The position numbers and the translations under genes are program-made. From a virus, in IMG/VR virus record IMGVR_UViG_3300045747_000167, positions 1 to 64,000 of that record: a stretch of DNA of 64,000 bases. One strand, 5' to 3'. Positions 89-64,000 of the stretch are shown here, one piece after another. The notes beneath the pieces were generated by a model, which was given only the letters and a program-made list of their open reading frames with translations, was not told the origin of the DNA and did no database searches. The first letter of the stretch is position 1. Each line of letters opens with the position of its first letter.

Positions 89-922
89 ATGGACACCAAG
101 ACACCCCGCCGCCCAGGTAGCAGACGCACGCAGCCCGGGAAGACCGCCGCTGACCCCATGGCCCGCGAACTCACGCCGCGCACCAAGGCAACGAAGGAGA
201 AGCAGGAGCTAGAGAAGAGCAACGGCAAGCCAGCACCCCTCACCCTGGATGAGCAGCTCGCACTGCACCGCAAGGCAGAACGGTCCATCGAACTGATGCG
301 CCTGCAGGACGAGGTCAAGCAGGCAGACAACGCATGGCGCACCAGGATGCGAGCCAAGCCAGGGATCGACTACGACCCAGCGGTGGCAGCCGAGATCCTG
401 CGACGCCTGTCGGACGGCGAGACGCTCAACGGCATCCTGGACACGGACGACCAGCGCTACCCCAGCAACGGGACGTTCTACAGGTGGATGGAGTCTGCTG
501 CGGGGGTTGCGGACGGCTTCTCGGAGCGCTACGCCCAGGCGCGCGAAGCCGGCTACAGAGCCATGGGCGAGGAGATCGTGCGCCTCGCGGACTACACCCG
601 CCTCGGGGCCAAGATCAAGACGGTGGGCGGCGAGGTCGAGGTCGTCACCCAGGACATGGTCGACCGCGCCAAACTGCAGATCGAGACCCGCAAGTGGGTG
701 CTGGCCCGCATGCTGCCCAAGGTGTACGGCGACCGCCTGGACGTCTCAGGCACCGTGAACCTCACCTACGAGCAGCGTCTGCAGTCCCTGGCCCAGGCTG
801 AAGTGGTGCGCCACGCTGCCCTGCCGATGGTCGAAAGGCTCGATTCCCCCCACATGCCCCCCATGCCAGCCTTCGACCCCACGCAAGTGGTTGATGCACA
901 AGGGGAATCTGGCACTGGGTGA
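89..922 (+). CDS. terS: Terminase small subunit
   Basis: This is the DNA-recognition subunit of the packaging motor, which binds the packaging site and presents DNA to the large terminase. The 277-residue product has a basic, disordered N-terminus. Its core pattern is typical of one phage small-terminase family: an IL-RRLSDGE-L-GI helix-turn-helix-like segment around residues 100-120, then FYRWME, then Y-QAREAGYRAMGEEIVRLAD, and finally R-WVLARMLPKVYGD. An internal ATG at 158 is an alternative start. The gene is separated from terL by about 2.35 kb holding six small genes, which is unusual because the two are often adjacent. Confidence 0.85.
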   Translation: MDTKTPRRPGSRRTQPGKTAADPMARELTPRTKATKEKQELEKSNGKPAPLTLDEQLALHRKAERSIELMRLQDEVKQADNAWRTRMRAKPGIDYDPAVAAEILRRLSDGETLNGILDTDDQRYPSNGTFYRWMESAAGVADGFSERYAQAREAGYRAMGEEIVRLADYTRLGAKIKTVGGEVEVVTQDMVDRAKLQIETRKWVLARMLPKVYGDRLDVSGTVNLTYEQRLQSLAQAEVVRHAALPMVERLDSPHMPPMPAFDPTQVVDAQGESGTG

Positions 923-1305
923 TGGGTGCTCAGCCCATGACAGAGTGTGCAGTAGTGCCAAAGTGTCGAAAAACACGGGCTGAGACCACTGCCAGGGCCT
1001 CACGAGCGCATGGCGCACGCGCATCGCGTACACAGATCAGCAGCCTGCCCTGCCGGCCTGCTGCCCTGGCCCTCCCGGCCCGGCCTGCCGCCCGCTCCGC
1101 GGCTCGATCGCGACCCCCACCCCCGGGGGGGTGACCGCCCGCCTGGCGCACCCCGGCTTGCCCTTGATCCACCCCTCTCAAATATTTCCCAAATTTTCCA
1201 GAAACCTGCCACCCCCCCTTGACAAGGCATATCCGCCTATCCGAGAATGCCTCCTGCAAATGTGAATCTCACCACGACATCCGACAAACCACCCGAAAGG
1301 CCTAC
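923..1305. other. Gene-free GC-rich spacer with candidate promoter
   Basis: No convincing gene lies in this 383-base gap. It holds a very GC-rich tract around 1060-1150 with a C/G-run palindrome near 1116-1133, then an A/T-richer stretch near 1180-1210. A TTGACA at 1219-1224 is followed 18 bp later by GAGAAT (1243-1248), a weak sigma70-type candidate. AGGCAT (1225-1230) and ATGCCT (1247-1252) form an inverted repeat around it. Being next to terS, the spacer is also a candidate cos/pac region. Confidence 0.45.
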
Positions 1306-1794
1306 ATGGGACGTATCAAAGGACAAACCGTACTGACGCTCACTCTGCGACAAAGGATCTCGCTGGCCGAGTACACCCAGCTGCACTACGTCGAGCGCAA
1401 GAAGTCGGACCAGGCCTTCGCACTCGATGCGTCCAAGGATCTGGGGTTCGAGATCAACAAGGACCATGTCCGAAAGATCAGGATCGAGTTCGAGATTGAG
1501 CCCTACCGGGTTGCATTGATCCGTGAGCGGGCCGCCATCAAGGCTGCCAAGGTTGCCGAGCGTGAGGCCAAGGAGCGAGCAGTGCTTGCCCACAGGGCGC
1601 AGCAGCTGGCCGTCCAGCAGGGCAAGACAAACCCAGAGCCCGCCGGCCTGATCCACATCGTGCGCGAGCTGCGCGAGATGGTCCTGACCCAGGCCGCGGT
1701 TGTCTCTGACCTGCGCCGGCGACTCGAGACCGTCGAGCGCTTCGAGTTCCCGCTGGTCGACAGCAAGACGGCGGCCGTCGGTCCCAACCACTGA
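1306..1794 (+). CDS. Hypothetical protein, possible DNA-binding/regulatory
   Basis: The 162-residue product is not recognised. The chosen ATG is preceded by GAAAGG at good spacing; a longer reading from 1219 has no ribosome-binding site. The N-terminal half is basic and alternates strand-like and helical stretches (LTLRQRISLAEY, then EINKDHVRKIRIEFEI). A charged helical stretch at about residues 60-90 and a C-terminal helix (IVRELREMVLTQAAVVSDLRRRLETVE) probably form a coiled coil. It sits alone after the gene-free spacer with its own candidate promoter, so a regulatory role is possible, but this is inference. Confidence 0.6.
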   Translation: MGRIKGQTVLTLTLRQRISLAEYTQLHYVERKKSDQAFALDASKDLGFEINKDHVRKIRIEFEIEPYRVALIRERAAIKAAKVAEREAKERAVLAHRAQQLAVQQGKTNPEPAGLIHIVRELREMVLTQAAVVSDLRRRLETVERFEFPLVDSKTAAVGPNH

Positions 1795-1811
1795 CATGGA
1801 GGCGCAAGCCA

Positions 1812-2021
1812 ATGACCGAGCGAGTACGAGACCTGCTGTGGGACAAGCGGCATCGAAGCCTTCCGCACGGGACCAAGCCGAAGCGGTTCGCCGTCTTTCG
1901 CAACGGGCACCTGTACGTCGGAACGGAGAGCCTTCACCGAACGGCGTCGGCTCGCAAGTTCCGGATCCAGCTGCGGCTGATCCGGCAGCATGCCGCGGCC
2001 CGATCTTCGCCTTCAAGCTGA
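1812..2021 (+). CDS. Small basic hypothetical protein
   Basis: This 69-codon frame starts 9 bases after a strong GGAGG (1798-1802), which is the main reason to accept it. The product is rich in Arg, Lys and His with no known domain. Its TGA overlaps the ATG of the next gene (TGATG), suggesting translational coupling. Another frame covers the same DNA but has no good ribosome-binding site. The function is unknown. Confidence 0.45.
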   Translation: MTERVRDLLWDKRHRSLPHGTKPKRFAVFRNGHLYVGTESLHRTASARKFRIQLRLIRQHAAARSSPSS

Positions 2022-2314
2022 TGCGCCGGCGCAAGGACGGCTCGCTCGGGCCGCTCTTCATCAACCGGCGCCAGCGCATCCGGCTCGGCGACAAGCTGCC
2101 GGCCGGGCTCCACCCGACCAAGGGCTACGCCCTCCGGCCTGGATGGCATGCCTGCAAGGAGAAGCTGGCGCCGCACCTGAGGCAGGGCGGTGACCGCGTC
2201 TGGTGCGCGGTGCTGCTCTGGGGCGTGACCGAGCACGATCGCCCGGCCTGCCAGGGTGGCACCTGGTACACGGCGGCCGCCATGCAAGTCATCTCGATTC
2301 TGGAGAACCAATGA
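2021..2314 (+). CDS. Conserved phage hypothetical protein
   Basis: The 97-residue product carries a pattern I recognise from many phage hypothetical proteins: RKDGSLGPLFINRRQRI, then HPTKGYALRPGWHAC and HDRPACQGGTWY. The conserved Trp, His and Cys positions suggest a small folded domain of unknown role. The family resemblance may begin a few codons upstream (FAFKL), so the true start could be an earlier non-ATG codon in the same frame. The gene overlaps both neighbours by a few bases. Confidence 0.6.
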   Translation: MRRRKDGSLGPLFINRRQRIRLGDKLPAGLHPTKGYALRPGWHACKEKLAPHLRQGGDRVWCAVLLWGVTEHDRPACQGGTWYTAAAMQVISILENQ

Positions 2315-2580
2315 ACGCTCTCGACAAGATCCCGCAGTTCCGAGTGGACTGGGCGAACCACCTACTGTGGTGCTGGCTGGTGTTCACTGCCCTGGTGGTG
2401 GTGGGCATGCCGACCGAGTCGGCGACGCTGCTGTGCCTGCTGGTGTCGGCCTACAAGAAGCTGGTGGACTACATCGAGTACCACGAGTCGGCTGGCATCT
2501 GCATCGCGAAGGGCCTGCTGACGCCGCTGATCCCGTACTCGGTGCTGGCGCTGCAGTACCTGAAGATGGTGGTGCTGTGA
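2311..2580 (+). CDS. Small membrane protein, holin candidate
   Basis: The 89-residue product has a hydrophobic segment at about residues 17-50 (LLWCWLVFTALVVVGM, then ATLLCLLVSAYKKL) and a second at about 66-85 (GLLTPLIPYSVLALQYL). It has two or three membrane spans and basic residues between them. The size and topology fit a holin or another inner-membrane phage protein, but the gene is 6 kb from the endolysin, so the lysis role is speculative. The start overlaps the upstream stop. Confidence 0.6.
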   Translation: MNALDKIPQFRVDWANHLLWCWLVFTALVVVGMPTESATLLCLLVSAYKKLVDYIEYHESAGICIAKGLLTPLIPYSVLALQYLKMVVL

Positions 2581-2849
2581 TGCGGGCCGCTCTTCTGCTG
2601 CTGCTCTGCGCTTCTGCACAGGCCGCTGACGTTCTCGGGACCGTGAGCACGCGCGCCGGTCGGATCGACCTCTACGCTGATGCTGGCCACTGCGTCGGCA
2701 ATGCGCTCATGGCCGAGTTCACCAGCGCTGCTGGGCGCAAGGTGCCTGGCTGCTGGGTGTCTGGCCAGGGCGTCGTGCAGATCGCCTGGTCGGACGGTGA
2801 TGTGACGCAGATCGATCCGCGCGCGATCAAGCGTCCCGAGTCGGTATGA
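2580..2849 (+). CDS. Small secreted protein
   Basis: The 89-residue product has a clear signal peptide (MRAALLLLLCASAQA, with cleavage likely after AQA) followed by a periplasmic domain of about 72 residues. The two cysteines of the mature part (in GHCVGNA and GCWVSG) could form a disulphide. The end pattern VQIAWSDGDVTQID resembles small exported proteins of other beta-proteobacterial phages. The start overlaps the upstream stop (TGATG). The function is unknown; a periplasmic role in host modification is possible. Confidence 0.6.
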   Translation: MRAALLLLLCASAQAADVLGTVSTRAGRIDLYADAGHCVGNALMAEFTSAAGRKVPGCWVSGQGVVQIAWSDGDVTQIDPRAIKRPESV

Positions 2850-3277
2850 GCGACACCCGCCGCGCCGCCATGCGCCTGGCCGACCTGCTCGAGAGCATGG
2901 CCTCGAGCTACGGGCAGACGTTCAAGTCGCACGCTGCGCTGGTGCGCGAGCTGGCCAAGCTGGTCAAGCATGACGGCGCCCTCGCCGAGCAGCAAGAGCA
3001 GGAGCCGCGCAAGTTGATCGGCTGGCGAACTGACGATTACCTAAACGAAACCGCTGACAAGAAGATTGCCGAGAATTGGTCTGTTCATTACAGCATGCTG
3101 CCGATCTTCGATGGCGATCCGCATACGAAGCTCTACGCCGCTCCAGTGGCGCAGCCGCTGACGGATCACTGCCCGATGTGTGATGAACGGCTGGCCGAAC
3201 AACGCGAAAACCAGCAGTGGCAAGCGGATGTGGCAAAGGGGCGCGCCCTCTTGGCCGCAGCAGAAGCCAAGCCATGA
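2846..3277 (+). CDS. Hypothetical protein with DUF551/Eaa-like part
   Basis: The 143-residue product has a helical N-terminal half (RLADLLESMASSYGQTFKSHAALVRELAKL). A middle part (GWRTDDYLNETADKKIAENWSVHYSMLPIFDGDPHTKLY) recalls the display-like segment of phage Eaa or DUF551-type hypothetical proteins. The HCPMCDERL motif near the end could bind a metal. The ATG overlaps the preceding stop (ATGA), and the gene's own stop overlaps the large terminase start. The role is unknown. Confidence 0.65.
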   Translation: MSDTRRAAMRLADLLESMASSYGQTFKSHAALVRELAKLVKHDGALAEQQEQEPRKLIGWRTDDYLNETADKKIAENWSVHYSMLPIFDGDPHTKLYAAPVAQPLTDHCPMCDERLAEQRENQQWQADVAKGRALLAAAEAKP

Positions 3278-4821
3278 GCACCAGCGTCCTCGAGCAGTTC
3301 AAGAACGACTTCCTGTTCTACGCTCCGAGGGCATTGCGCATCCGCACCAAGTCGGGCGGCATCGAGCCGCTGGTCCTGAACTCGGCGCAGATGTACATCC
3401 ATCACCGCATCGAGCAGCAGCGCAAGCGCATCGGCAAGGTGCGAGCGAACCTGCTCAAGGGGCGGCAGCAGGGCGCCAGCACCTACGTTCAGGGCCGCTA
3501 CTACCACAAGGTCTCGATGCAGCCCGGCGTGCGGGCGCTGATCCTGACGCACCTGGGCGACTCTACCGATGCGCTCTTCGAGATGACGAAGAGGTATCAC
3601 GACAACTGCCCCGACGAGCTGCGCCCGCAGACCGGCACCGCCAACAGCCACGAGCTGCACTTCCCGTCGCTGGACTCTGGCTACGTCGTGGCCACCGCCG
3701 GCAACCGCAAGGGCATCGGGCGCGGCCGCACGTTCCAGTACTTCCACGGCTCCGAGGTGGCCTTCTGGGAAGGCGCCGCGGACATCAAGGCTGGCCTGGG
3801 CCAGACGGTGCCGGACGAGGACGGCTCAGAGATCATCCGCGAGTCGACTGCGAACGGCGTCGGCAACGAGTTCCACCAGGACTGGACCGCGGCCGAGCGC
3901 GGCGAGGGGGACTACGAGAACATCTTCGTGCCGTGGTTCTGGCAGCCCGAGTACCGGCGCGCGGTCTACCCCGGGTTCCAGCTGGACCCGGTCGAGAAGG
4001 ACTACTTCGAGCGCTACGAGAAGCTGGGCCTGACCATCGAGCACATGGTCTGGCGCCGCGCCAAGCTGGTCAACGACTTCAAGGGCGACATCACCCTGTT
4101 CGACCAGGAGTACCCGGCCGAGCCAGTGCTCGCCTTCACCAAGGTCTCAGGCGACCCACTGATCGGCAGCGACAAGGTCAGCCGCGCGATGAAGATCGGC
4201 CTGAACGTCGAGCCCCGCGGCCCGCGCATCCTGGGCGTAGATCCGGCCGAGTACGGCAACGACTCGACCGCCATGGTGCTGCGCCAGGGCCGGCGCGCGT
4301 ACGGCATTGGGCCCGGCGAGAAGGTCTACCGGCTGCAGAAGTACGGCCCGATGGAGGTCGTCGCGAAGGTGGCCGACATGGCCGACAAGTGGAAGCCGGA
4401 CGCGATCAACGTGGACGCCACCGGTGTCGGGTCCGGAATCGCCGATCGGCTCAAGGAGCTGGGCTACCCGGTCAACCGGATCCAGTTCGGCGGCAAGCCT
4501 GCGCGCGAGGAGCTGTACCTCATCAAGCGCGACGAGATCTGGGGCGAGATGCGCGACTGGCTCGAGGACGAGCCGAACCAGCTACCCAACGACGACTCGC
4601 TGGCGACAGACATCTGCGGGCCGCGGTACAGCTACGACTCGAGCCGCCGGCTGCGGGTCGAGACCAAGGAGTCGATGCGCAAGCGCGGCCTGCGCTCGCC
4701 CGACAGCGCTGACGCCCTGGCCCTGACCTTTGCGACCCCGTTCGCCGCCGGCAAGGACGGCAGCAACCAGACCAGCAACGCTAACTACCGCGCTGCCCGC
4801 GGCGTGCGCCGCATCCGCTAA
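3274..4821 (+). CDS. terL: Terminase large subunit
   Basis: This is the packaging motor ATPase and headful/end-cutting nuclease. The 515-residue product has the expected size. The ATPase domain shows a deviant Walker A (LKGRQQGAST, residues 61-70) and a Walker B-like YFHGSEVAFWE. The C-terminal RNase H-like nuclease has its acidic residues in LGVDPAEYGNDST (from about residue 320), INVDATGVGSG and PDSADALALTF. The chosen ATG overlaps the upstream stop; an in-frame upstream extension lacks a ribosome-binding site. Confidence 0.93.
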   Translation: MSTSVLEQFKNDFLFYAPRALRIRTKSGGIEPLVLNSAQMYIHHRIEQQRKRIGKVRANLLKGRQQGASTYVQGRYYHKVSMQPGVRALILTHLGDSTDALFEMTKRYHDNCPDELRPQTGTANSHELHFPSLDSGYVVATAGNRKGIGRGRTFQYFHGSEVAFWEGAADIKAGLGQTVPDEDGSEIIRESTANGVGNEFHQDWTAAERGEGDYENIFVPWFWQPEYRRAVYPGFQLDPVEKDYFERYEKLGLTIEHMVWRRAKLVNDFKGDITLFDQEYPAEPVLAFTKVSGDPLIGSDKVSRAMKIGLNVEPRGPRILGVDPAEYGNDSTAMVLRQGRRAYGIGPGEKVYRLQKYGPMEVVAKVADMADKWKPDAINVDATGVGSGIADRLKELGYPVNRIQFGGKPAREELYLIKRDEIWGEMRDWLEDEPNQLPNDDSLATDICGPRYSYDSSRRLRVETKESMRKRGLRSPDSADALALTFATPFAAGKDGSNQTSNANYRAARGVRRIR

Positions 4822-4881
4822 ACCGTCCCCAGCGTGGTGGATGCCACGCAACCTCAACTTATCAGTCAACCAGAGAACCAG

Positions 4882-5196
4882 ATGACCTATATCGCCGCAA
4901 GAAACGACCGTGTCTTCGTGCGCCGCGCCGCCAAGGAGACCACCACCGCGTCCGGCATCGTGCTGACCGAGAAGGCGGCCGAGAAGGTCGTCACCGGAAC
5001 CGTCGTGGCCATCGGCCCGGGCCGTGTCACCGACGCTGGATACACGGCACCGATGGGCTTGTGGGAGGGCGACGAGGTGCTCTTCTCGAAGGTGGCCGGC
5101 GACACCGTGAAGATCGACGGCGAAGAGCTGGTCGTGCTGGCCGAGCGCGACATCTACGCCGTGCTGCGCCCCAGCGCTGACCGCGCCAAGCTCTGA
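4882..5196 (+). CDS. GroES-like co-chaperonin (Cpn10)
   Basis: The 104-residue product matches the Cpn10 pattern: VFVRRAAKETTTASGIVL, a mobile-loop-like TEKAAEKVV, then TGTVVAIGPGR, GDEVLFSKVAGDTVKIDGEELVVLAERDIYAVL. Cpn10 caps the GroEL chamber; phage versions such as T4 gp31 support folding of capsid proteins by host GroEL. The position between terL and portal fits a head-assembly role. The start was chosen where the family begins; a GTG at 4834 would add 16 residues. Confidence 0.88.
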   Translation: MTYIAARNDRVFVRRAAKETTTASGIVLTEKAAEKVVTGTVVAIGPGRVTDAGYTAPMGLWEGDEVLFSKVAGDTVKIDGEELVVLAERDIYAVLRPSADRAKL

Positions 5197-5256
5197 CCGT
5201 CCCCCTGCAGCCGTGCCGCACCCATCCTCGCACCATCCACGAAGGGGCTGCGGCAA

Positions 5257-5445
5257 ATGAGCGCTCAACGGCCTGACGAAGAAGCCTGCGATCAGACGGG
5301 CAACAACTTCTACGCCAAGTCAGTGTCGTCTTTGCGCGCGCGCATTGCCGACTACAAGCACTTCCTGCCTGACTGGCCGGCGCTGCACCAGTCGTTCCAA
5401 CGTGACCTCGATGCTCTATTGCTGAAGTCCGATCGGAACACCTGA
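5257..5445 (+). CDS. Small hypothetical protein
   Basis: The 62-residue product is not recognised. It is mainly helical and polar (VSSLRARIADYKHFLPDWPALHQSFQRDLDALLLKSD). GAAGGGG lies upstream of the ATG. Its TGA overlaps the portal ATG (TGATG), implying coupled translation with the portal gene. A small head-assembly or regulatory role is possible. Confidence 0.55.
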   Translation: MSAQRPDEEACDQTGNNFYAKSVSSLRARIADYKHFLPDWPALHQSFQRDLDALLLKSDRNT

Positions 5446-8003
5446 TGGAAGTCGTTGACGCACTGTCGCAGCACACGAAGACCGGCACCATGCCGGCCGT
5501 CGTCGGCCAGCTGTCACCCGAGGACTACTTCAAGTACGTCGAGGAGACCCGAGCACAGCCCGCGTTCCGCACGAAGATGGACAAGGCTGCCGACTACTAC
5601 GACGGCAACCAGCTGAACTCGCAGATCCTGCAAGACCTCGAGCTGATGGGCCTCGGCTCGCTGATGACGAACCTCGTCAAGCCGGCCATCGACGCAGTGC
5701 TGGGCATCGAGGCGAAGACCAGGCAGCGCCTGCGCGTCACCGCGGATGCGGACGAAGACCAGGATGTGGCCGAGGCGCTGAGCGCGCAGCTGGCCGAGGC
5801 CGAGCGCGAGAGCCGCCTGGACCGCGCCTGCAGCGACGCCTACGGCAGCCAGACCAAGGTCGGCCTGGGCTGGGTCCACGTCGGCCGGCAGCCGGACCCG
5901 TTCCTCTACAAGTACAAGGCCGAGGCGGTCCACCGGCGCGAGATGTTCTGGGACTGGTCCACGCCGATCAGTGACCCTGGCCTGGACACCTCCCGGTACC
6001 TCATCCGCGCCAAGTGGTTCCCGACCGAGCAGGTCAAGGCAGCCATGCCGCAGCACGGCGACCTGATCAACGCATCGGCCGGCGGCTGGCAGCCGGACTG
6101 GCTGCAGCGTGCGCGCGAAGACACCTCACTGCTGAATGCCTACGACCAGGAGACCCGCATGTCGGTCTCCTCGTGGGACTGGCGGAACATCGACAACCGG
6201 CGCATCGCGCTGCAGGAAGTCTGGTACGCCAAGTACATCCGCGGCCTGGTGCTGAACCTCGGCGACAAGGTGGTCGAGTTCGACAAGAAGAACCGACTCC
6301 ACATGGCCGCCGTCGGGTCTGGCCGCTTCACGCCGACCCCAGCGATCTACCGCAAGCTGCGTTCCTCGATCTGGTTCGGACCGCATCTGCTGCAGGACTA
6401 CGACGCGAACACGAACAAGTTCCCGTACGTCCCGTTCTGGGGCTTCCGCGAGGACTTGACCGGCACACCGTACGGCCTGATCCGCTCGATGATCCCGCTG
6501 CAGGACGAGGTCAATGCCCGCCGGCGCAAGCTGATGTGGCTCCTGTCCTCGAAACGGGTGCAGATCGACAGCGACGCCCTCGACGCGCGCTTCAACGACT
6601 TCGCCGACCTAGTCGACGAGGTGTCGCGCCCCGACGCGATGATCGTGACGAACCCGACGCGGACCAACAAGGACGCGGTCAAGGTCGAGTCCGACCTCGG
6701 CCTGAGCCAGCAGCAGTTCGAGGTGCTGGCTGAGGCCAAGCAGGGCATCCAGGACGCGGCTGGCATCTTCAACTCCGTGATGGGGAAGAAGGACACCGGC
6801 GCCGACAGCGGCCTGGCGATGAACACCCTGGTCGAGCAGTCATCGAACACGCTCGGCGAGCTGAACGACAACTTCCGCTTCGCGCGCCAGGAGGCTGCGA
6901 TGCGCCTGCTGGACATGATCCGGCAGGACTCGAGCGGCAAGCAGATTGACGTGGTGGTCGGCGAGACCAATGCGCGCAAGCGGACCATCTCCCTGAACAC
7001 GCCGCAGGTCGACGAGCTGACGGGCATCCAGTACCACGAGAACAGCACCGACAAAACGGCCTGCAAGGTCGCCCTGGAGGAGATCCCGACCACGCCGGCG
7101 TACCGCGCGCAGCAGCAGATGATGCTCAGCGAGGTCATCAAGTCGCTCCCGCCGGTGGCCTCTGCCGCCCTCACGCCGTACTTCATCGAAGGGTCGGACC
7201 TGCCGAAGCGCCACGAGATGGCTGACGCGGCCCGCAAGGCCATGGGCATGCCGATCGATGGCCAGCCGCAGGATCCGCAGGTCGCCGCGCTGCAGCAGCA
7301 GCTGCAGGATCTGCACACGCAGTCCGAAGACGCCATGCAGAAGTACGAGCAGGCGGTCCAGGAGCAGAGCAGCAGGGCCGAGCAGGCCAGCCAGCAGGTC
7401 TCCAGCCTGAAGCTGCAGCTCACGAACAAGCAATCCGAGCTGGAACTGCGCCACCAGGAGCTGGTGTTCGCGCACGAGAAGGACATCGCCGACAAGAAGA
7501 TCGCCGAAGCACAGGCGCTCGCTCAGGCGAACCCGGCCTCGGTGCCTCCGGACCCGGTGAAGATGAGCGAGCTGAGCATCAAGGAGCGCGAGCTGGCCCT
7601 GAAGGAGAAGCAGCACGAGCTGGCCACCTCCGCTCAAAGCGCCGACCACCAGCACCGCACAGCAGAGCTGGAGCACAACCAGCTCGTGGCTTCCCAGACC
7701 CCGCCGGAGGAGCCGGAGACCGAGGACGAGGGCGCCGAAGAGGCCCGCATCCAGGAGATCGTCACCAAGCTGGTCGATCCCATCGCACAGAAGCTCGACC
7801 TGGTGCTGGACGCACTCAGCCAGGCAGCGCAGCAGGACAAGACCGAGAAGGCCGCCAAGGCCTCGGCCCAAAAGGAGGTTCAACAGCAACAGGCAGCCGC
7901 TCAACCGGCCGCCGCCGCCCCCAAGAAGCGGAAGGTCACGATCCAACGTGACACGAACGGCCGCATGACGGGAGCGGTCCTCGAGGACCACGGAGATTCC
8001 TGA
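5445..8003 (+). CDS. Portal protein, P22-like type
   Basis: The portal forms the dodecameric ring at the capsid vertex through which DNA is packaged and ejected. The 852-residue product begins with an ADYYDGNQ segment and a KPAIDAVLGIEAKTR segment, as in P22-type portals. The core has PYVPFWGFREDLTGTPYGLIRSMIPLQDEVNARRRKLMWLLSS, the conserved clip/stem region of this family. From about residue 610 onwards there is a long Gln/Glu/Ala-rich coiled coil, comparable to the barrel extension of P22-like portals. A short Lys-rich patch (PKKRKV) lies near the C-terminus. Confidence 0.88.
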   Translation: MEVVDALSQHTKTGTMPAVVGQLSPEDYFKYVEETRAQPAFRTKMDKAADYYDGNQLNSQILQDLELMGLGSLMTNLVKPAIDAVLGIEAKTRQRLRVTADADEDQDVAEALSAQLAEAERESRLDRACSDAYGSQTKVGLGWVHVGRQPDPFLYKYKAEAVHRREMFWDWSTPISDPGLDTSRYLIRAKWFPTEQVKAAMPQHGDLINASAGGWQPDWLQRAREDTSLLNAYDQETRMSVSSWDWRNIDNRRIALQEVWYAKYIRGLVLNLGDKVVEFDKKNRLHMAAVGSGRFTPTPAIYRKLRSSIWFGPHLLQDYDANTNKFPYVPFWGFREDLTGTPYGLIRSMIPLQDEVNARRRKLMWLLSSKRVQIDSDALDARFNDFADLVDEVSRPDAMIVTNPTRTNKDAVKVESDLGLSQQQFEVLAEAKQGIQDAAGIFNSVMGKKDTGADSGLAMNTLVEQSSNTLGELNDNFRFARQEAAMRLLDMIRQDSSGKQIDVVVGETNARKRTISLNTPQVDELTGIQYHENSTDKTACKVALEEIPTTPAYRAQQQMMLSEVIKSLPPVASAALTPYFIEGSDLPKRHEMADAARKAMGMPIDGQPQDPQVAALQQQLQDLHTQSEDAMQKYEQAVQEQSSRAEQASQQVSSLKLQLTNKQSELELRHQELVFAHEKDIADKKIAEAQALAQANPASVPPDPVKMSELSIKERELALKEKQHELATSAQSADHQHRTAELEHNQLVASQTPPEEPETEDEGAEEARIQEIVTKLVDPIAQKLDLVLDALSQAAQQDKTEKAAKASAQKEVQQQQAAAQPAAAAPKKRKVTIQRDTNGRMTGAVLEDHGDS

Positions 8004-11104: not shown

Positions 11105-12415
11105 ATGAGCTTCGTCACCTACGTCCGCAAGCCTCTGAAAGAGATTGCGACCTTGCCCTTCCAGGGGCAAGGCGTGCTGGTCATGGTCGAGGACTTGCCC
11201 GGCAACCCGCTGTGCGACTGGGCAGGCACAAGCTACACCGTGCCGTTCACCTCCGCACAAGCAGCAGCGGTGGCGGCTGCGGGCCGTTTGTCGTGCCTGC
11301 CAAGATGGGCGACCGCGCTGGCAAACGTCAGGGCTGGCACCGGAAATGCCCGCTTGATGGTACTGGGGGACAGCACTTCGGCGGGTGCGTTCGCCAATTC
11401 CGGCGCCGGCTTTGCAAGCAATAATATGGCTTCATGCTGGCCGTATCTGTTGGCGCCACTGTTTACTGCGCAGGGATACACGCCAAACATAGGTTCTGTG
11501 TTCGGAGACGTGACCAACAGCACGATTGTTGCCACCCTTGTCGCGCACGACACGCGGCGCGCCATAGGCGCAAATTGGACTCTAGGTGCGTTCATCACGT
11601 TTGGCGGCAACGTACTGTCAAACGCCAACGCAACCACAACGCTCGCCAGTTTTACCCCTGCTGCCGCGTTTGACACCATCATCGTCACTACCATCAACAA
11701 CGCCGGTTATGGCGTCATGAGCGTAGCAATTGACGGGGGGGCGACTCTTCAGGATATAAACCTAGCTACAGGCGGCAGCGTTGTTACTCGCACGACAATG
11801 TCTGTGCCGAGGGGAACTCATCGCATTGACCTGTTCAGGGCGATAGCCGATGGCGCGTCCATCCGAAATATCAACTGCGTTTCAATCGAAACCACGGACT
11901 CCACCAAGCGCACGGTGGACATCATCAACGCATCGGTCGGCGGGATAACCTGTGCGATAACAGCGAATACAACCGCGTATTTCAACTCGCTGTCGGTGTT
12001 CCCGAACTACAACCCAGACTTGACCATCATTTGCATTGGCATCAATGATTGGGTTGCCGGCACGGCGGCAGGAACATATGACCTTGTGACGGCCGGAACC
12101 GTAGCAGTTAATACGCAGAAGATCATCGACTCAGCACGGCTTAGCGGCGATGTGATCTTGATGACCCCCGTCCCATCAAAGGTGAGTTCGTACACCCAGG
12201 CCGCGCAAAACCTGATCTTGGCTGCGATCCGCACCACGGGGGCGTTGAGCAACGTGCCAATCGTGGATTTGTACGCCAACTGGGGAAACTACGTCGCAGG
12301 GACTACCGCTGGCTATTACTTGCCAAATATCGATGCCGTGCATCCGGGTGCGGCAGGATACACCGACATGGCATCTCGCGTTGCTGGGGTTCGCGGGTTG
12401 TTTGGCGCTACCTGA
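11105..12415 (+). CDS. Tailspike A: anchor domain plus SGNH hydrolase
   Basis: The 436-residue product begins with a 47-residue module identical to that of the protein at 13451, then an SGNH/GDSL hydrolase domain: block I MVLGDSTSAG (Ser90), block III CIGINDW and block V DAVHPG (Asp410, His413). SGNH domains of tailspikes remove acetyl or other esters from surface polysaccharides. The shared N-terminus is probably the virion anchor. Tailspike A is likely a receptor-modifying enzyme on the particle. The body of the gene is more A/T-rich than its neighbours, suggesting recent acquisition. Confidence 0.82.
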   Translation: MSFVTYVRKPLKEIATLPFQGQGVLVMVEDLPGNPLCDWAGTSYTVPFTSAQAAAVAAAGRLSCLPRWATALANVRAGTGNARLMVLGDSTSAGAFANSGAGFASNNMASCWPYLLAPLFTAQGYTPNIGSVFGDVTNSTIVATLVAHDTRRAIGANWTLGAFITFGGNVLSNANATTTLASFTPAAAFDTIIVTTINNAGYGVMSVAIDGGATLQDINLATGGSVVTRTTMSVPRGTHRIDLFRAIADGASIRNINCVSIETTDSTKRTVDIINASVGGITCAITANTTAYFNSLSVFPNYNPDLTIICIGINDWVAGTAAGTYDLVTAGTVAVNTQKIIDSARLSGDVILMTPVPSKVSSYTQAAQNLILAAIRTTGALSNVPIVDLYANWGNYVAGTTAGYYLPNIDAVHPGAAGYTDMASRVAGVRGLFGAT

Positions 12416-12935: not shown

Positions 12936-13454
12936 ATGCCCATCTGGCTGAGCCTCATCCCCTGGCGCCTGGTTGCCGTTGCGGTGGCCTGCGCAGGGGT
13001 GTGGTTCGCCTGGACAGAGCATGGCGCATCCCGCTACCAGGACGGCCGCCGCGACATGCAGGCGGTCGTCGTCGCCCAGGTCCAGGAGGAGCAGCGTGCC
13101 CTCCAGGAGCTGGCCAACAAGCACCAGGAGAAGGTCAATGAAATCGCAGCTGCTGACCAGGAGCGCATATCTCTGCTTGAGCGCCGTGTTTCTGCTCTGG
13201 ACACTGGAACTCGCGGCCTGCGCGAGCGCCTCACCGCGGTCGTTGCCAGCACTGTCGGACCTCCCGAAGCTCCCGGTGCCACCGGCCAGCCTGATGCAGG
13301 CGCCGCCGCCCTCGGGAGCATATCTAGCTCGTGTTCAGACCTGGCAGCAGGACTCGCTCGCGACGCTGAACGCCTTGCCGACCAGGTCCGCGGCCTCCAG
13401 TCCTACGCCGTCGAAGTGAGCGGCGCGCCGCCGAACCTGGAGCACTCGCAATGA
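12936..13454 (+). CDS. Rz: i-spanin (Rz-like)
   Basis: The 172-residue product has an N-terminal membrane anchor (about residues 5-25, LIPWRLVAVAVACAGVWFAW) followed by a long periplasmic coiled coil (QEEQRALQELANKHQEKVNEIAAADQERISLLERRVSAL). This is the topology of Rz inner-membrane spanins, which bridge to an outer-membrane lipoprotein and fuse the two membranes in the last step of lysis. The o-spanin is nested in another frame at 13138-13419. The gene ends with an ATGA overlap onto tailspike B. Confidence 0.82.
   Translation: MPIWLSLIPWRLVAVAVACAGVWFAWTEHGASRYQDGRRDMQAVVVAQVQEEQRALQELANKHQEKVNEIAAADQERISLLERRVSALDTGTRGLRERLTAVVASTVGPPEAPGATGQPDAGAAALGSISSSCSDLAAGLARDAERLADQVRGLQSYAVEVSGAPPNLEHSQ
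13138..13419 (+). CDS. Rz1: o-spanin (Rz1-like), nested in Rz
   Basis: This 93-residue frame lies entirely inside the Rz gene in a different frame. It starts at an ATG after AGGAGAAGG. It has a hydrophobic signal ending in a lipobox (LELAAC), which predicts a lipoprotein attached to the outer membrane. A Pro-rich mature part follows (ALSDLPKLPVPPASLMQAPPPSGAY), as in Rz1. Nesting, lipobox and proline content together make this assignment strong. Confidence 0.85.
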   Translation: MKSQLLTRSAYLCLSAVFLLWTLELAACASASPRSLPALSDLPKLPVPPASLMQAPPPSGAYLARVQTWQQDSLATLNALPTRSAASSPTPSK

Positions 13455-44232: not shown

Positions 44233-45467
44233 GACTGCCTCCTGATTGGTGACGCGGCCTGCCCCGCCGATGTGCAGGATTTGGAGGCGTTCGATTTGTC
44301 CGCGTCGTTGACCTTGGTAGATGCCGCGATCCAGGCCTCCAGGCCGGCGACCTCTCGGTCGTCCTGGTCTCCCTTCACCCAGCGGGCATAGGTCGAGTGG
44401 AAGATCTCCACGCTGTGCCCCATCTGCCCGGCGCACCAGGCCGCCGTGCGCCCTGCCATCAGCATCATGGTGGCGAAGGTATGGCGGGCGTGGTTCGGGG
44501 CCCTGTAGCGGATCCCCAGGCGCTTCAGGCAGGGTGTCCAGTAGCTGCGCCGGAACGCGCGCTCCTCGAGCCATGCCGTGCCGTAGCGCGGGTCCAGCCA
44601 GACGTGCTCGCCGGCCAGCTTGGTGTGCTTGGCCTGCCGCTGCAGGGCCGCCAGCGACCGGCTGTTCAGGCGCACGTCGCGCGACACGCCAGTCTTGGTC
44701 TTGGCCTTGTCGACGCCGCGCACGATGGCCTCGTGGATGCGCTGGTAGCCGCTGTTGAAGTCGATCGAGCCCCAGCGCAGGCCCGCCATCTCGGACGTCC
44801 GCACGCCGCTGTAGAAGCGCCACTCGACCATGTTGGCCACGGCCTCGGGGCAGTGCGTACGCATGTCGGCGATGATGGCCTCGGCCTCCTGCATCGAGAA
44901 CGGGTCGGGCGGCTCGCGCTGCCAGCTGGCGCGCGGGATCTTGGATGCCGGGTTGTCCTTCAGCGTGCCGTCGGTGACCGCCAGCTGCAGCGCCTCGCGC
45001 AGCACGCTGACGTAGTTGTTGATCGTCTTGCCGGACAGGCTGGCGCGCGCGCCGAGGGCGAGTAGGAAGTGGCTGTGCTTCAGCCCCCGCACCGGGCGGT
45101 CGCCGAGCAGCCCGCCGTCGACCGCGGAGCCCTTCCAGAACTTGATCGCCGAGGTGTAGCCGGCGCGCGTCGAGTGCTCGATGCGCTGCGTGCTGAGCCA
45201 GGTGTCCAGCTGCCGGCCCAGCGTCAGCTCGACGCCGGTGGTGGCATCGTCGCCCGAGGGGAAGTGCTCCGCGTAGCTGAAGGTGCCGAGGCGGATCATC
45301 TCCTTCACATCGTGCGAGAAGCGCTCGGCCCAGCGGATGTTCGCCGGCGTCGGCGCCATCGGCCTGCCGTTCGTCATGAGCACCGGGCGGCGGCGCTTCC
45401 CCTCGAACAGGAAGTCCAGACGCATGCTGTACTTCCTGACCTCGACCCCAGAACCTGACCTGCCCAT
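44229..45467 (-). CDS. int: Tyrosine integrase
   Basis: The 412-residue product is a phage-type tyrosine recombinase that joins attP to the host tRNA-His site. The N-terminal 70 residues (VEVRKYSMRLDFLFEGKRRRPVLMTNGRPMAPTPANIRWAERFSHDVKEMIRLGTFSYAEHFP) match the DUF3596 arm-binding domain. A SAM-like core-binding domain follows (about 80-180). The catalytic domain has Arg223 in SGVRTSEMAGLRW, Lys in KTKTGVSRD, Arg328-His329 in NHARHTFA, His351 in MGHSVEIFHSTYARW and nucleophile Tyr360. GGAGG precedes the ATG. The C-terminus overlaps the next start. Confidence 0.92.
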   Translation of the reverse strand: MGRSGSGVEVRKYSMRLDFLFEGKRRRPVLMTNGRPMAPTPANIRWAERFSHDVKEMIRLGTFSYAEHFPSGDDATTGVELTLGRQLDTWLSTQRIEHSTRAGYTSAIKFWKGSAVDGGLLGDRPVRGLKHSHFLLALGARASLSGKTINNYVSVLREALQLAVTDGTLKDNPASKIPRASWQREPPDPFSMQEAEAIIADMRTHCPEAVANMVEWRFYSGVRTSEMAGLRWGSIDFNSGYQRIHEAIVRGVDKAKTKTGVSRDVRLNSRSLAALQRQAKHTKLAGEHVWLDPRYGTAWLEERAFRRSYWTPCLKRLGIRYRAPNHARHTFATMMLMAGRTAAWCAGQMGHSVEIFHSTYARWVKGDQDDREVAGLEAWIAASTKVNDADKSNASKSCTSAGQAASPIRRQS

Positions 45468-58916: not shown

Positions 58917-58946
58917 GGTCGATCTCGATGCCTCAGGTGGACGCCT

Positions 58947-59069
58947 ATGCACCAGCGCCTGAGACACGACACCCCTACTGGGCGGGCAGACGCGGAGGCA
59001 GGGGAGGTGGGTGGCGAAGGCAGCGCCCCAGCGTCGAACGGCTACCGGGTCATGGACGCCGACGGGTGA
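58947..59069 (+). CDS. Small hypothetical protein in spacer
   Basis: A 40-codon frame with AGGTGG six bases upstream of the ATG reads MHQRLRHDTPTGRADAEAGE and ends GYRVMDADG. The coding evidence is the strong ribosome-binding site and plausible composition. The rest of the 248-base spacer 58917-59164 holds no other gene. Confidence 0.45.
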   Translation: MHQRLRHDTPTGRADAEAGEVGGEGSAPASNGYRVMDADG

Positions 59070-61996: not shown

Positions 61997-62311
61997 TCAG
62001 AGCTGGATGCCGGCACGTTCGAACAGCGCTTCGACCTCGGCATCGATCAGCAACGCGGTGAGGCGCGCCGGGATCAGCGACGAGTCGAGCATGCGCAGCG
62101 CGCGCGCCAACTGGGTGTAGGTCGGCAGGCCGACGTTTTGGGCCCAGGCGTCGGCGATGGCGATCGCCTCACGCGAAGGCGACAACGCCGGCTTCGTCTG
62201 CTGCTTCTCGGACGGCTGCACCTTGCGGACGTAGTCGCCGAGCGTGACCTCGCCCAGCGTCTGCTGGCCTGGGGGGTTCGTGGTGGCCTTGTGGGGCGGA
62301 ATGTGGAACAT
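61997..62311 (-). CDS. Hypothetical protein
   Basis: The 104-residue product has a flexible N-terminus (MFHIPPHKATTNPPGQQTLGEVTLGDYVRKVQPSEKQQTK) and helices (SREAIAIADAWAQNVGLPTYTQLARALRMLDSSLIPARLTALLIDAEVEALFERAGIQL). It was not recognised. GGAGATTGAG before the ATG is a good ribosome-binding site. Confidence 0.58.
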   Translation of the reverse strand: MFHIPPHKATTNPPGQQTLGEVTLGDYVRKVQPSEKQQTKPALSPSREAIAIADAWAQNVGLPTYTQLARALRMLDSSLIPARLTALLIDAEVEALFERAGIQL

Positions 62312-62333
62312 CTCAATCTCCGGGTTAGGTGGG

Positions 62334-62386
62334 TCGGGATGACGCCACTCCCGAGCACCGCACGCGGTGCAAGGGGCTGAGGTCTA
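62334..62386 (-). repeat. Structured stop-codon element E1
   Basis: This is copy 1 of a 52-53 nt element that starts at the stop codon of the preceding gene. In the plus orientation it reads TCGGGATGACGCCACTC, then a hairpin GCACCGC-AC-GCGGTGC (62355-62370), then GGGCTGAGGTCTA. It is the most degenerate of the four copies in its outer arm (TGAGGTCT). The inner stem is perfect over 7 bp. Confidence 0.75.
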
Positions 62387-62623
62387 GCCGCGATGCGCGA
62401 GACGGTTGCGCAGCACGTTGCGGCGCTTCAGGGCGGCGCGCTTCGTGCGGGCATAGCTGCCCTTGTTGCGGGTGCTGCCGTGGGTGGCAGCGGGCGCACT
62501 GGTCTTGGCCGGCTTGAGGGCCGGAGAGGCCACTGCGGTGACGGCCGAGGAGGCCAGGGCGATGCCGACGGCCAGCAGCGCACGGATGCGGGTGAGGCCG
62601 ATGTCGAGGTGACTGCGTTGCAT
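62384..62623 (-). CDS. Small secreted basic protein
   Basis: The 79-residue product has a signal peptide (RIRALLAVGIALASSAVTAVASPA) and a basic tail rich in Lys, Arg and Ser/Thr (STRNKGSYARTKRAALKRRNVLRNRLAHRG). AAGGAG precedes the ATG; an upstream in-frame ATG was rejected. The function is unknown. Element E1 begins at its stop and element E2 lies upstream of its start. Confidence 0.65.
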   Translation of the reverse strand: MQRSHLDIGLTRIRALLAVGIALASSAVTAVASPALKPAKTSAPAATHGSTRNKGSYARTKRAALKRRNVLRNRLAHRG

Positions 62624-62648
62624 GCTGCAACTCCTTCGTGATGTGTCG

Positions 62649-62700
62649 TCGGGATGACTCCACTCCAAGGCGCACCGAGATGCGCGATGGGCTGGGGTCA
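62649..62700 (-). repeat. Structured stop-codon element E2
   Basis: This is copy 2 of the element, starting at the stop of the hexapeptide-repeat gene. In the plus orientation it reads TCGGGATGACTCCACTCC, an inner hairpin GCGCA-CCGAGA-TGCGC, then GGGCTGGGGTCA. The outer arms TGACTCCA and TGGGGTCA pair with one T-G wobble. Confidence 0.78.
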
Positions 62701-63504
62701 GGGCTTCGCCGGCAGGCGCCCGTGGGCGCGCGCGATACCCAGGATCAGTTCCTTGTGGGCGCGCCAGAAGCGCAGCGCCTCGCGACCGTCCATCGCAGCG
62801 ATGGCGGCGTCGTCAAAGGCCTCCCATTCAGCAAGCGCGTGGTCTTGGCAGCCGATGGAAATCTGCGTGTCGGTGATCGTCACGTCCCAGGTCAGGCCGC
62901 CGATGAAGATGGGGGTCTTTGATGCGTTGCCGTAGACCCAGGCGTTGCCGTAGACCCGGGCGTTGCCGAAGACCCGGGCGTTGCCGTAGACCTGGGCGTT
63001 GCCGAAGACCTGGGCGTCGCCGTAGACCTGGGCGTTGCCGAAGACCCGGGCGTTGCCGTAGACCTGGGCGTTGCCGAAGACCCAGGCGTTGCCGTAGACC
63101 CAGGCGTTGCCGAAGACCCGGGCGTTGCCGTAGACCTGGGCGTCGCCGTAGACCTGGGCGTTGCCGAAGACCCGGGCGTTGCCGAAGACCCGGGCGTTGC
63201 CGTAGACCCGGGCGTCGCCGAAGACCTGGGCGTCGCCGTAGACCTGGGCGTTGTCGTAGACCTGGGCGTCGCCGTAGACCTGGGCGTTGCCGTAGACCTG
63301 GGCGTCGCCGTAGACCCAGGCGTTGCCGTAGACCCAGGCGTTGCCGTAGACCGACAGGCTGGCCTCAGCCTCGACATAGCCGCCAATGTCTCCCGCTGCG
63401 ACGTGCAAGGCCGCGATAGCAACCAGTGCTCGGATGCGCTTGACCGTGCGCCCTGGCGCGATGGTGATCTCGTCGCCGGGCACGAATTCGTACTTGGTGT
63501 TCAC
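62698..63504 (-). CDS. Hexapeptide-repeat left-handed beta-helix protein
   Basis: The 268-residue product starts (VKRIRALVAIAALHVAAGDIGGYVEAEASLSVYGNA) with a module seen in phage and YdcK-like proteins. 24 tandem hexapeptides of the form V-Y/F-G-N/D-A-x follow, about residues 51-194. The repeats predict a left-handed parallel beta-helix, as in acetyltransferases and other LbH proteins. The C-terminal domain (TWDVTITDTQISIGCQDHALAEWEAFDDAAIAAMDGREALRFW) is conserved in this family. GTG start after AGGAGAACCAA. Confidence 0.85.
   Translation of the reverse strand: MNTKYEFVPGDEITIAPGRTVKRIRALVAIAALHVAAGDIGGYVEAEASLSVYGNAWVYGNAWVYGDAQVYGNAQVYGDAQVYDNAQVYGDAQVFGDARVYGNARVFGNARVFGNAQVYGDAQVYGNARVFGNAWVYGNAWVFGNAQVYGNARVFGNAQVYGDAQVFGNAQVYGNARVFGNARVYGNAWVYGNASKTPIFIGGLTWDVTITDTQISIGCQDHALAEWEAFDDAAIAAMDGREALRFWRAHKELILGIARAHGRLPAKP
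62922..63353 (-). repeat. 24 tandem 18-bp repeats
   Basis: The unit in the plus orientation is TTGCCGTAGACCTGGGCG with frequent substitutions at codons for Tyr/Phe, Asn/Asp and Gln/Arg/Trp. It encodes the 24 hexapeptides of the beta-helix gene. The near-identity of units suggests recent expansion by slippage or recombination. It is in frame, so the copy number can change without frameshift. Confidence 0.92.
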
Positions 63505-63527
63505 TTGGTTCTCCTGAGAAGGTGTCG

Positions 63528-63579
63528 TCGGGATGACGCCACTCGCAAGCCCACCGAGGTGGGCAAGCGGCTGGGGTCA
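63528..63579 (-). repeat. Structured stop-codon element E3
   Basis: This is copy 3 of the element, starting at the stop of the gene at 63577. In the plus orientation it reads TCGGGATGACGCCACTC, an inner hairpin GCCCACC-GA-GGTGGGC, then CGGCTGGGGTCA. The outer arms TGACGCCA and TGGGGTCA pair with one G/G mismatch. Confidence 0.78.
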
Positions 63580-63849
63580 CTCTTCGATGTAGGTCTCTTC
63601 GACTTGCACGTAGAACATGCAGCTACCGTCGCCGGCACCGAAGGACGAGAACGCGCCCTGCTGCGCCTCGGTGAACTCGGCCAGCACGTTGTCGATCTCA
63701 TCGGCCACGCGCGAGTCGTTGCGGTACTCGCTGATCACTTCGAGGGCGGCCTTGACTGCGCCGTCGCGGGACTGGAAGACGCGCGGCGATGCGGTCGGGC
63801 TGGACGCTTCGCCGGTCTCGCTCAAGACCCAGACGTTGTTGTCGGACAT
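63577..63849 (-). CDS. Hypothetical protein
   Basis: The 90-residue product (MSDNNVWVLSETGEASSPTASPRVFQSRDGAVKAALEVISEYRNDSRVADEIDNVLAEFTEAQQGAFSSFGAGDGSCMFYVQVEE) is acidic, with a beta N-terminus and helices. It was not recognised. AGGAGCAACC precedes the ATG. Element E3 begins at its stop. Confidence 0.62.
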   Translation of the reverse strand: MSDNNVWVLSETGEASSPTASPRVFQSRDGAVKAALEVISEYRNDSRVADEIDNVLAEFTEAQQGAFSSFGAGDGSCMFYVQVEETYIEE

Positions 63850-63871
63850 GGTTGCTCCTGGTTGCGTGAGA

Positions 63872-63923
63872 TCGGAATGACCGCACTCCAAAGGCCCGCA
63901 CGCGGGCCGATGGGCTGGGGTCA
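63872..63923 (-). repeat. Structured stop-codon element E4
   Basis: This is copy 4 of the element, starting at the stop codon of the partial gene at the window edge. In the plus orientation it reads TCGGAATGACCGCACTCC, an inner hairpin GCCCGC-AC-GCGGGC, then TGGGCTGGGGTCA. The outer arms TGACCGCA and TGGGGTCA pair with one mismatch. Confidence 0.78.
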
Positions 63924-64000
63924 GAAGAATCGGTTGGCGCAGATCGGCCCGATGCCGTTCGCCACGGACACCGGGTCGGTCAGTTCGCGGTTGCAGATGC
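63921..64000 (-). CDS. Partial zinc-ribbon protein, DUF6011-like
   Basis: The last 25 residues are visible; the start is beyond the window. The pattern C-N-RELTDPVSVANGIGPICANRFF matches the end of DUF6011-type zinc ribbons, small phage proteins of unknown function that end in a GIGP-C motif. The reading frame is the only open one across the edge with this pattern. Confidence 0.65.
   Translation of the reverse strand, partial: ICNRELTDPVSVANGIGPICANRFF

Follow-up and report, generated by a model that had tools for sequence, protein, structure and literature searches.

What is the short structured sequence that recurs between the leftward genes near the end of this viral DNA, and what does it do there? 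The window analysed here, 64,000 nucleotides long, comprises positions 1-64000 of a 66,036-bp IMG/VR viral record. A preliminary description had reported four copies of the element between successive leftward genes, and all four lie where it placed them. To the right of position 64000, where it advised looking for more, there are two extra copies (64892-64937 and 65592-65639), which brings the record to six. The length needed revision: against the 52-53 nt first given, the conserved unit, read on the minus strand, is 46 nt (~40-51 nt in relatives). The reported anchoring at stop codons holds for copies 2-4, where TGA forms the first three bases of the element; in copy 1 the codon is TAG, with a one-base shift. 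Re-checked coordinates of the four copies and of the neighbouring genes are given below, with E values from covariance model R2, which contains no window sequence.

62340-62385, minus strand: copy 1, a P1-P2-P3 rod; the TAG at 62384-62386, which ends the upstream 79-aa ORF, overlaps its 5' base; E = 7e-13
62655-62700, minus strand: copy 2; first three bases are the TGA of the beta-solenoid gene; E = 7e-11
63534-63579, minus strand: copy 3; first three bases are the TGA of the 90-aa ORF; E = 3e-16
63878-63923, minus strand: copy 4; first three bases are the TGA of the upstream 315-aa ORF; E = 3e-14
61997-62311, minus strand: gene following copy 1; starts with MFHIPPHK, an N-terminus seen again behind the element in several contigs
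62384-62623, minus strand: 79-aa ORF between copies 2 and 1
62698-63504, minus strand: YdcK-type beta-solenoid gene between copies 3 and 2 (PF18836, E 1e-35)
63577-63849, minus strand: 90-aa ORF between copies 4 and 3

Recovery of all four copies by a model built without them excludes a chance origin. Within the gene at 62698-63504 (minus strand), ~24 tandem 18-bp repeats (62924-63352) code for the YdcK-type beta-solenoid.

On the coding strand the element forms a single rod: P1, a 2x2 loop, P2, a second 2x2 loop, P3 and an apical loop. P1 is an 8-nt outer helix with one conserved mismatch, mostly pyrimidine-pyrimidine, at position 5 or 6; P2 has 3 bp, P3 about 6-7 bp, and the apical loop is ~4 nt (a tetraloop). 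As first described, the inner stems of the four window copies vary in their letters and keep complete pairing. The outer arms had been said to pair in copies 2-4, which they do; they are 8 nt long, and copy 1 pairs too, with two mismatches and one G-T pair. Among relatives the outer arms differ widely (TGACCCCA/TGGNGTCA, TGATCTCA/TGCGATCA, ACATTTCA/TGCAATGT, ACAGCTCA/TGCGCTGT and GATCCCCA/TGGCGATC). The helices are freely variable and the loop between P1 and P2, CA-GC/AG-TG, is near-invariant, with GC in 75 and AG in 78 of 82 copies and A8-U39 invariant.

Relatives were first gathered by pattern scans of viral contigs (a first loose scan by structure only returned mostly noise). The covariance model and the check for compensatory changes that had been proposed bore the structure out. 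In alignment A2, which consists of 29 gapless sequences chosen partly by structure, 92.1% of paired cells are complementary versus 65.0% after shuffling, and double-changed cells number 118 versus 32; 16 of 17 pairs show compensatory changes on both sides. The covariation score is 0.661, compared with 0.151 for shuffled alignments and at most 0.103 for slid structures, and RNAalifold, unaided, recovered the same structure. Because membership of A2 depended partly on structure, two unbiased helix tests were made. The inner helix is present in 19 of 21 sequences chosen by their outer arms alone (mean z -3.5). Conversely, in 22 sequences chosen only by their core, 3.77 of 6 outer-arm positions are paired; permutation gives 2.48 +/- 0.23, and none of 2000 trials exceeded 3.27. 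Covariation is thus strong, also where the helix played no part in the choice of sequences. On the coding strand G.T mismatches outnumber A.C mismatches (~41 vs 22, columns 5 and 6 omitted), as expected of an RNA made from that strand; since the copies are not independent, this wobble test is merely suggestive.

An addition to the preliminary description is a second, alternative hairpin. The 3' arm of P1 can also pair with the immediate downstream flank to form P4, so that P1 and P4 are mutually exclusive. P4 lies just ahead of the next Shine-Dalgarno sequence, with its 5' edge at the internal loop. It takes forms such as AGTGC-N6-GCACT or, in the window, GTGgCGTC-ATCCC-GACGaCAC, with variants AGTGG/CCACT and GGTGGC/GCCACC. 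The window copies are as follows.

62329-62348, minus strand: P4 of copy 1, GTGGcGTC-ATCCC-GACCCAC, predicted by folding, also with the 5' arm blocked
62643-62663, minus strand: P4 of copy 2, GTG-GA-GTC-ATCCC-GAC-GA-CAC, read off the sequence by the pattern of copies 3 and 4
63522-63542, minus strand: P4 of copy 3, GTGgCGTC-ATCCC-GACGaCAC, predicted by folding, free and blocked
63866-63886, minus strand: P4 of copy 4, GTGcGGTC-ATTCC-GATCtCAC, predicted by folding, free and blocked

The mean P4 fold energy is -6.80 with a copy's own flank and -5.48 +/- 0.28 with flanks swapped between contigs, the lowest of 1000 swaps reaching -6.34. By these predictions, the P4 pairing is flank-specific, each copy matching its own. 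Blocking the first 10 nt costs the molecule only 3.0 +/- 2.3 kcal/mol in stability. When those 10 nt are blocked, P4 with at least 4 pairs is predicted in 58 of 62 copies, versus 52.3 +/- 1.9 with swapped flanks.

Covariance model R1 found 82 distinct copies in ~35 viral contigs, a few of these contigs being near-duplicates, and the context counts below are based on the 82 copies. Most carriers hold 1-6 copies per record, on one strand and grouped within a few kb. The family was previously uncatalogued, and no Rfam 15 family reaches its gathering score at the window elements or at 18 further loci. When phage and plasmid collections were searched with the element by BLASTN, a single credible match emerged, in Macromonas phage BK-30P, the one cultured carrier; the other matches were short and looked like chance. 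The search of phage and Burkholderiales genomes that had been suggested yielded copies in viral contigs; in 398 Pseudomonadota and 399 Burkholderiales genomes the model gave weak matches only (at most 30 bits). The best bacterial-genome match (L087) lies within a GC-rich repeat-like stretch, and the sole strict-pattern match in 85,000 prokaryote species genomes, in Devosia (L023), did not reach E <= 1 genome-wide with the model. No convincing copy was found in these bacterial genomes, though several carriers look temperate; the scans are incompletely sensitive, and weak bacterial copies could escape the large ones because few candidates were scored per genome.

The carriers are many unrelated phages, probably of Betaproteobacteria. 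No gene family is common to all of them, the contigs being partial. Near relatives of carriers, namely Acidovorax phage AP1, DSL-LC04, HTVC027P, 023Pt_psg01, PS-1 and ctpbd312, hold no copy, and a search for loci related through the window primase found none. Betaproteobacterial hosts are probable because the cultured carrier infects Macromonas, the window helicase is closest to that of Acidovorax phage AP1, and the Rfam family Betaproteobacteria-1 is present in the window and in the carrier L016. This RNA (RF02932) lies at 58930-59050 (plus strand) in the window and at 3443-3565 (plus strand) in L016, with 74.6 and 86.8 bits; it scored above cut-off in 3 of 398 sampled Pseudomonadota genomes, and a literature search by its name found no mention. 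T7-type RNA polymerase is encoded by 2 of 20 carriers. Among 14 records, 5 encode a tyrosine integrase, the window record included, and none an RNase III gene. The window phage may be temperate, as its tyrosine recombinase domain (PF00589, E 1e-17; 44409-44891, minus strand, in a 469-codon frame) suggests.

How the element sits among genes is equally regular. A stop codon (56 TGA, 2 TAA, 2 TAG) is found no more than 3 nt from the base of P1 in 60 of the 82 copies, and the next start codon follows the element at a median distance of 24 nt with a Shine-Dalgarno sequence in between. The reading frames of stop and next start are randomly related (22/20/17). Many different small genes precede the copies, and in arrays each gene is followed by an element 0-2 nt past its stop; within a single array the outer arms vary. 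The related phages L031 and L045 are 100% identical over 78 bp, from the element up to the start codon, while the genes on both sides are different, and L031 has one additional unit of gene, element and Shine-Dalgarno sequence compared with L026. In the carrier L005, an additional hairpin (gaggacagtcatattgtcctc; ggggacagcttgtctgtccc), at 11985-12010 and at 13160-13184, stands between stop codon and element before two copies.

In one lineage (L026, L031, L035, L044 and L045) the first copy terminates a conserved non-coding leader of ~200 nt. This leader lies at ~1936-2120 (minus strand) in L026, with equivalents in the other four and possible diverged forms in L059 and at 19820-19990 in L021. 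On visual inspection at least one of its helices covaries (CCACCG/CGTGG to CCTACC/GTAGG), and it has no Rfam match; a tRNA or tmRNA origin was unsupported. It is possibly a separate structured RNA. Directly 3' of the element, ORFs beginning MFH(I/V)P(A/P)HK...PP.Q occur in the window (61997-62311, minus strand) and in L026, L027, L031, L035, L044, L045, L058 and L017. Their length is 20 aa in the L026 lineage (MFHVPAHKNTQTPPAQFTPK) and 104 aa in the window, and they could be leader peptides or carry a conserved N-terminal tag.

Placement, random frame and the overlap of P1 with P4 together indicate a cis-acting mRNA element. We therefore consider it very probable that the element acts as RNA in cis, one of the roles proposed at the outset. 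It sits at gene junctions of what are probably early or accessory phage operons, and it probably governs the cutting, protection or translation of the phage messages.

As to what such an RNA does, we tentatively favor a site of mRNA processing and stability that would work like the RNase III sites of T7 without being homologous to them. A host endonuclease, most simply RNase III, would cleave the 3' strand of the rod within or close to the conserved internal loop. The upstream message would then keep the P2-P3 hairpin to cap its 3' end, and the released 3' arm could refold into P4 and cap the downstream message at its 5' end. In this way one polycistronic transcript would yield single-gene messages, each separately stabilized. 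A host factor is the simplest actor because the carriers have no gene family in common and none of the 14 records encodes RNase III. The covarying rod, the flank-specific P4 with its 5' edge at the internal loop and the coding-strand G.T excess are consistent with this proposal, which would also explain the copies at leader ends. Cutting and capping, like the switching considered below, are what we infer from sequence, structure statistics and context.

For the comparison with T7 we use its RNase III sites R0.3, R0.5, R1, R1.1 and R1.3. Like the element, they form rods interrupted by internal loops and lie in the leader or between early genes; the intergenic rods are ~45-50 nt long, and stop codons lie near the base of R0.5 and R1. 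R0.3 lies in the leader before the first gene, and some copies here likewise end a non-coding leader. With 21 positions per strand and internal loops, our element matches the intergenic or leader rod of ~20 bp expected of T7-type sites. However, the T7 sites lack the CA-GC/AG-TG loop and show no sequence or model similarity to the element (covariance model R1 had no match in T7 500-8000), whose cleavage is putative. A single cut divides T7 R1.1 into pieces of 47 and 13 nt (PMC4858673). Three features fit the processing proposal less well. The lower half of an RNase III substrate would be expected to be longer than P1, which has 8 nt and a mismatch; processing does not require exact placement at stop codons; and the letters of CA-GC/AG-TG are not obviously needed by RNase III, a hint of a more specific reader.

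The placement at stop codons leads to the main rival, which is possible though doubtful: a switch between P1 and P4 that the ribosome operates to couple neighboring genes. A terminating ribosome would cover about the first 10 nt and open P1, so that P4 forms; once it departs, P1 would return, and the two states would alter 30S loading at the Shine-Dalgarno sequence just downstream. The stop codon close to the P1 base in 60/82 copies, the prediction of P4 in 58/62 copies once 10 nt are blocked and the start codon a median 24 nt past the element all agree with such coupling. Going by the ribosome footprint, the internal loop would lie about at the leading edge of the terminating ribosome. However, the leader-end copies have no evident upstream ORF, swapped flanks still yield P4 in 52/62 cases, and the Shine-Dalgarno sequence is apparently free in both states, which leaves the output unclear. 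The switch accounts for stop-codon placement better than processing does, but not for the leader copies, and neither fully explains the near-invariance of CA-GC/AG-TG. A wider form of the idea, which we regard as rather improbable, is a new two-state class of phage RNA that senses the ribosome terminating upstream and also marks the borders of exchangeable gene cassettes, letting unrelated phages add small genes whose expression control is already built in, without an integrase.

The near-invariant loop amid variable helices (GC 75/82, AG 78/82, A8-U39 invariant) would be explained if CA-GC/AG-TG were recognized by a specific host or phage RNA-binding protein that regulates translation or stability. 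We judge this improbable, as there is no candidate protein and the carriers, whose contigs are partial, do not share any phage gene family.

The arrays raise the question whether gene and element form an exchangeable cassette, with phages swapping small genes via the element as shared sequence or, less likely, via an integron-like site in folded single-strand DNA. Differing genes each with an element 0-2 nt past the stop, the L031/L045 identity amid different genes and the extra unit in L031 relative to L026 would fit. Still, ordinary homologous recombination between repeats of another function would give the identical pattern, the outer arms are non-identical within one array, tyrosine integrases occur in only 5/14 records, and P4 and the fixed Shine-Dalgarno distance are left unexplained; recombination as the function is improbable. 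Of the mobile intergenic repeat suggested in the preliminary description, what stands is that units of gene and element are gained or lost among related phages; no accompanying transposase or attC signature was found. Integron attC sites, clusters of which have been reported in phages (PMC9892861), are likewise imperfect palindromes that follow stop codons immediately, in arrays whose small genes differ. Unlike them, the element has the RYYYAAC/GTTRRRY core pair in 0/62 copies and either core in only 2, and attC identity was rejected. REP/BIME sequences share the short imperfect palindromes in intergenic positions; REP identity was rejected as well, with the GTAG/GGAG foot in 1/62 copies and a Y1 (RAYT-type) transposase in 0/14 records, positive controls being detected. 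Similar in position are the extended start-associated sequences (ESAS) of Cluster K mycobacteriophages, which are described (PMC3203893) as imperfect inverted repeats of unknown function, present in many copies, their arms separated by a spacer that varies, and located among non-structural genes just 5' of ribosome-binding sites, as our element is, with a consensus that varies by subcluster. That account gives them 17-bp arms tied to a 13-bp start sequence, GGGATAGGAGCCC, in actinobacterial phages, and presents them as inverted repeats, without a two-state fold or stop-codon anchoring. Our context table, by reading, has no GGGATAGGAGCCC start sequence after the elements.

Lastly, an intrinsic transcription terminator, or a stop-codon readthrough or frameshift signal, is extremely improbable: the hairpin does immediately follow stop codons, and at L005 13185 P4 is followed by TTTT, but a T-run occurs in only 1/62 copies and the stop-to-start frame is random (22/20/17), counts that ruled these readings out, and no intrinsic terminator was predicted at the window elements.

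Taken together, we identified a widespread and strongly covarying phage RNA, previously uncatalogued and missing from Rfam. If the element is a processing site, the T7 paradigm of messages punctuated by RNase III would extend to phages, temperate as well as lytic, that probably infect Betaproteobacteria, and both new message ends would be capped by built-in hairpins. If it is instead a ribosome-driven switch, it would be a portable and compact part for coupling genes. Its cassette behavior provides a way to study how phages assemble small accessory genes into arrays, and the covariance model makes these readings testable in metagenomes and in the cultured Macromonas phage BK-30P.
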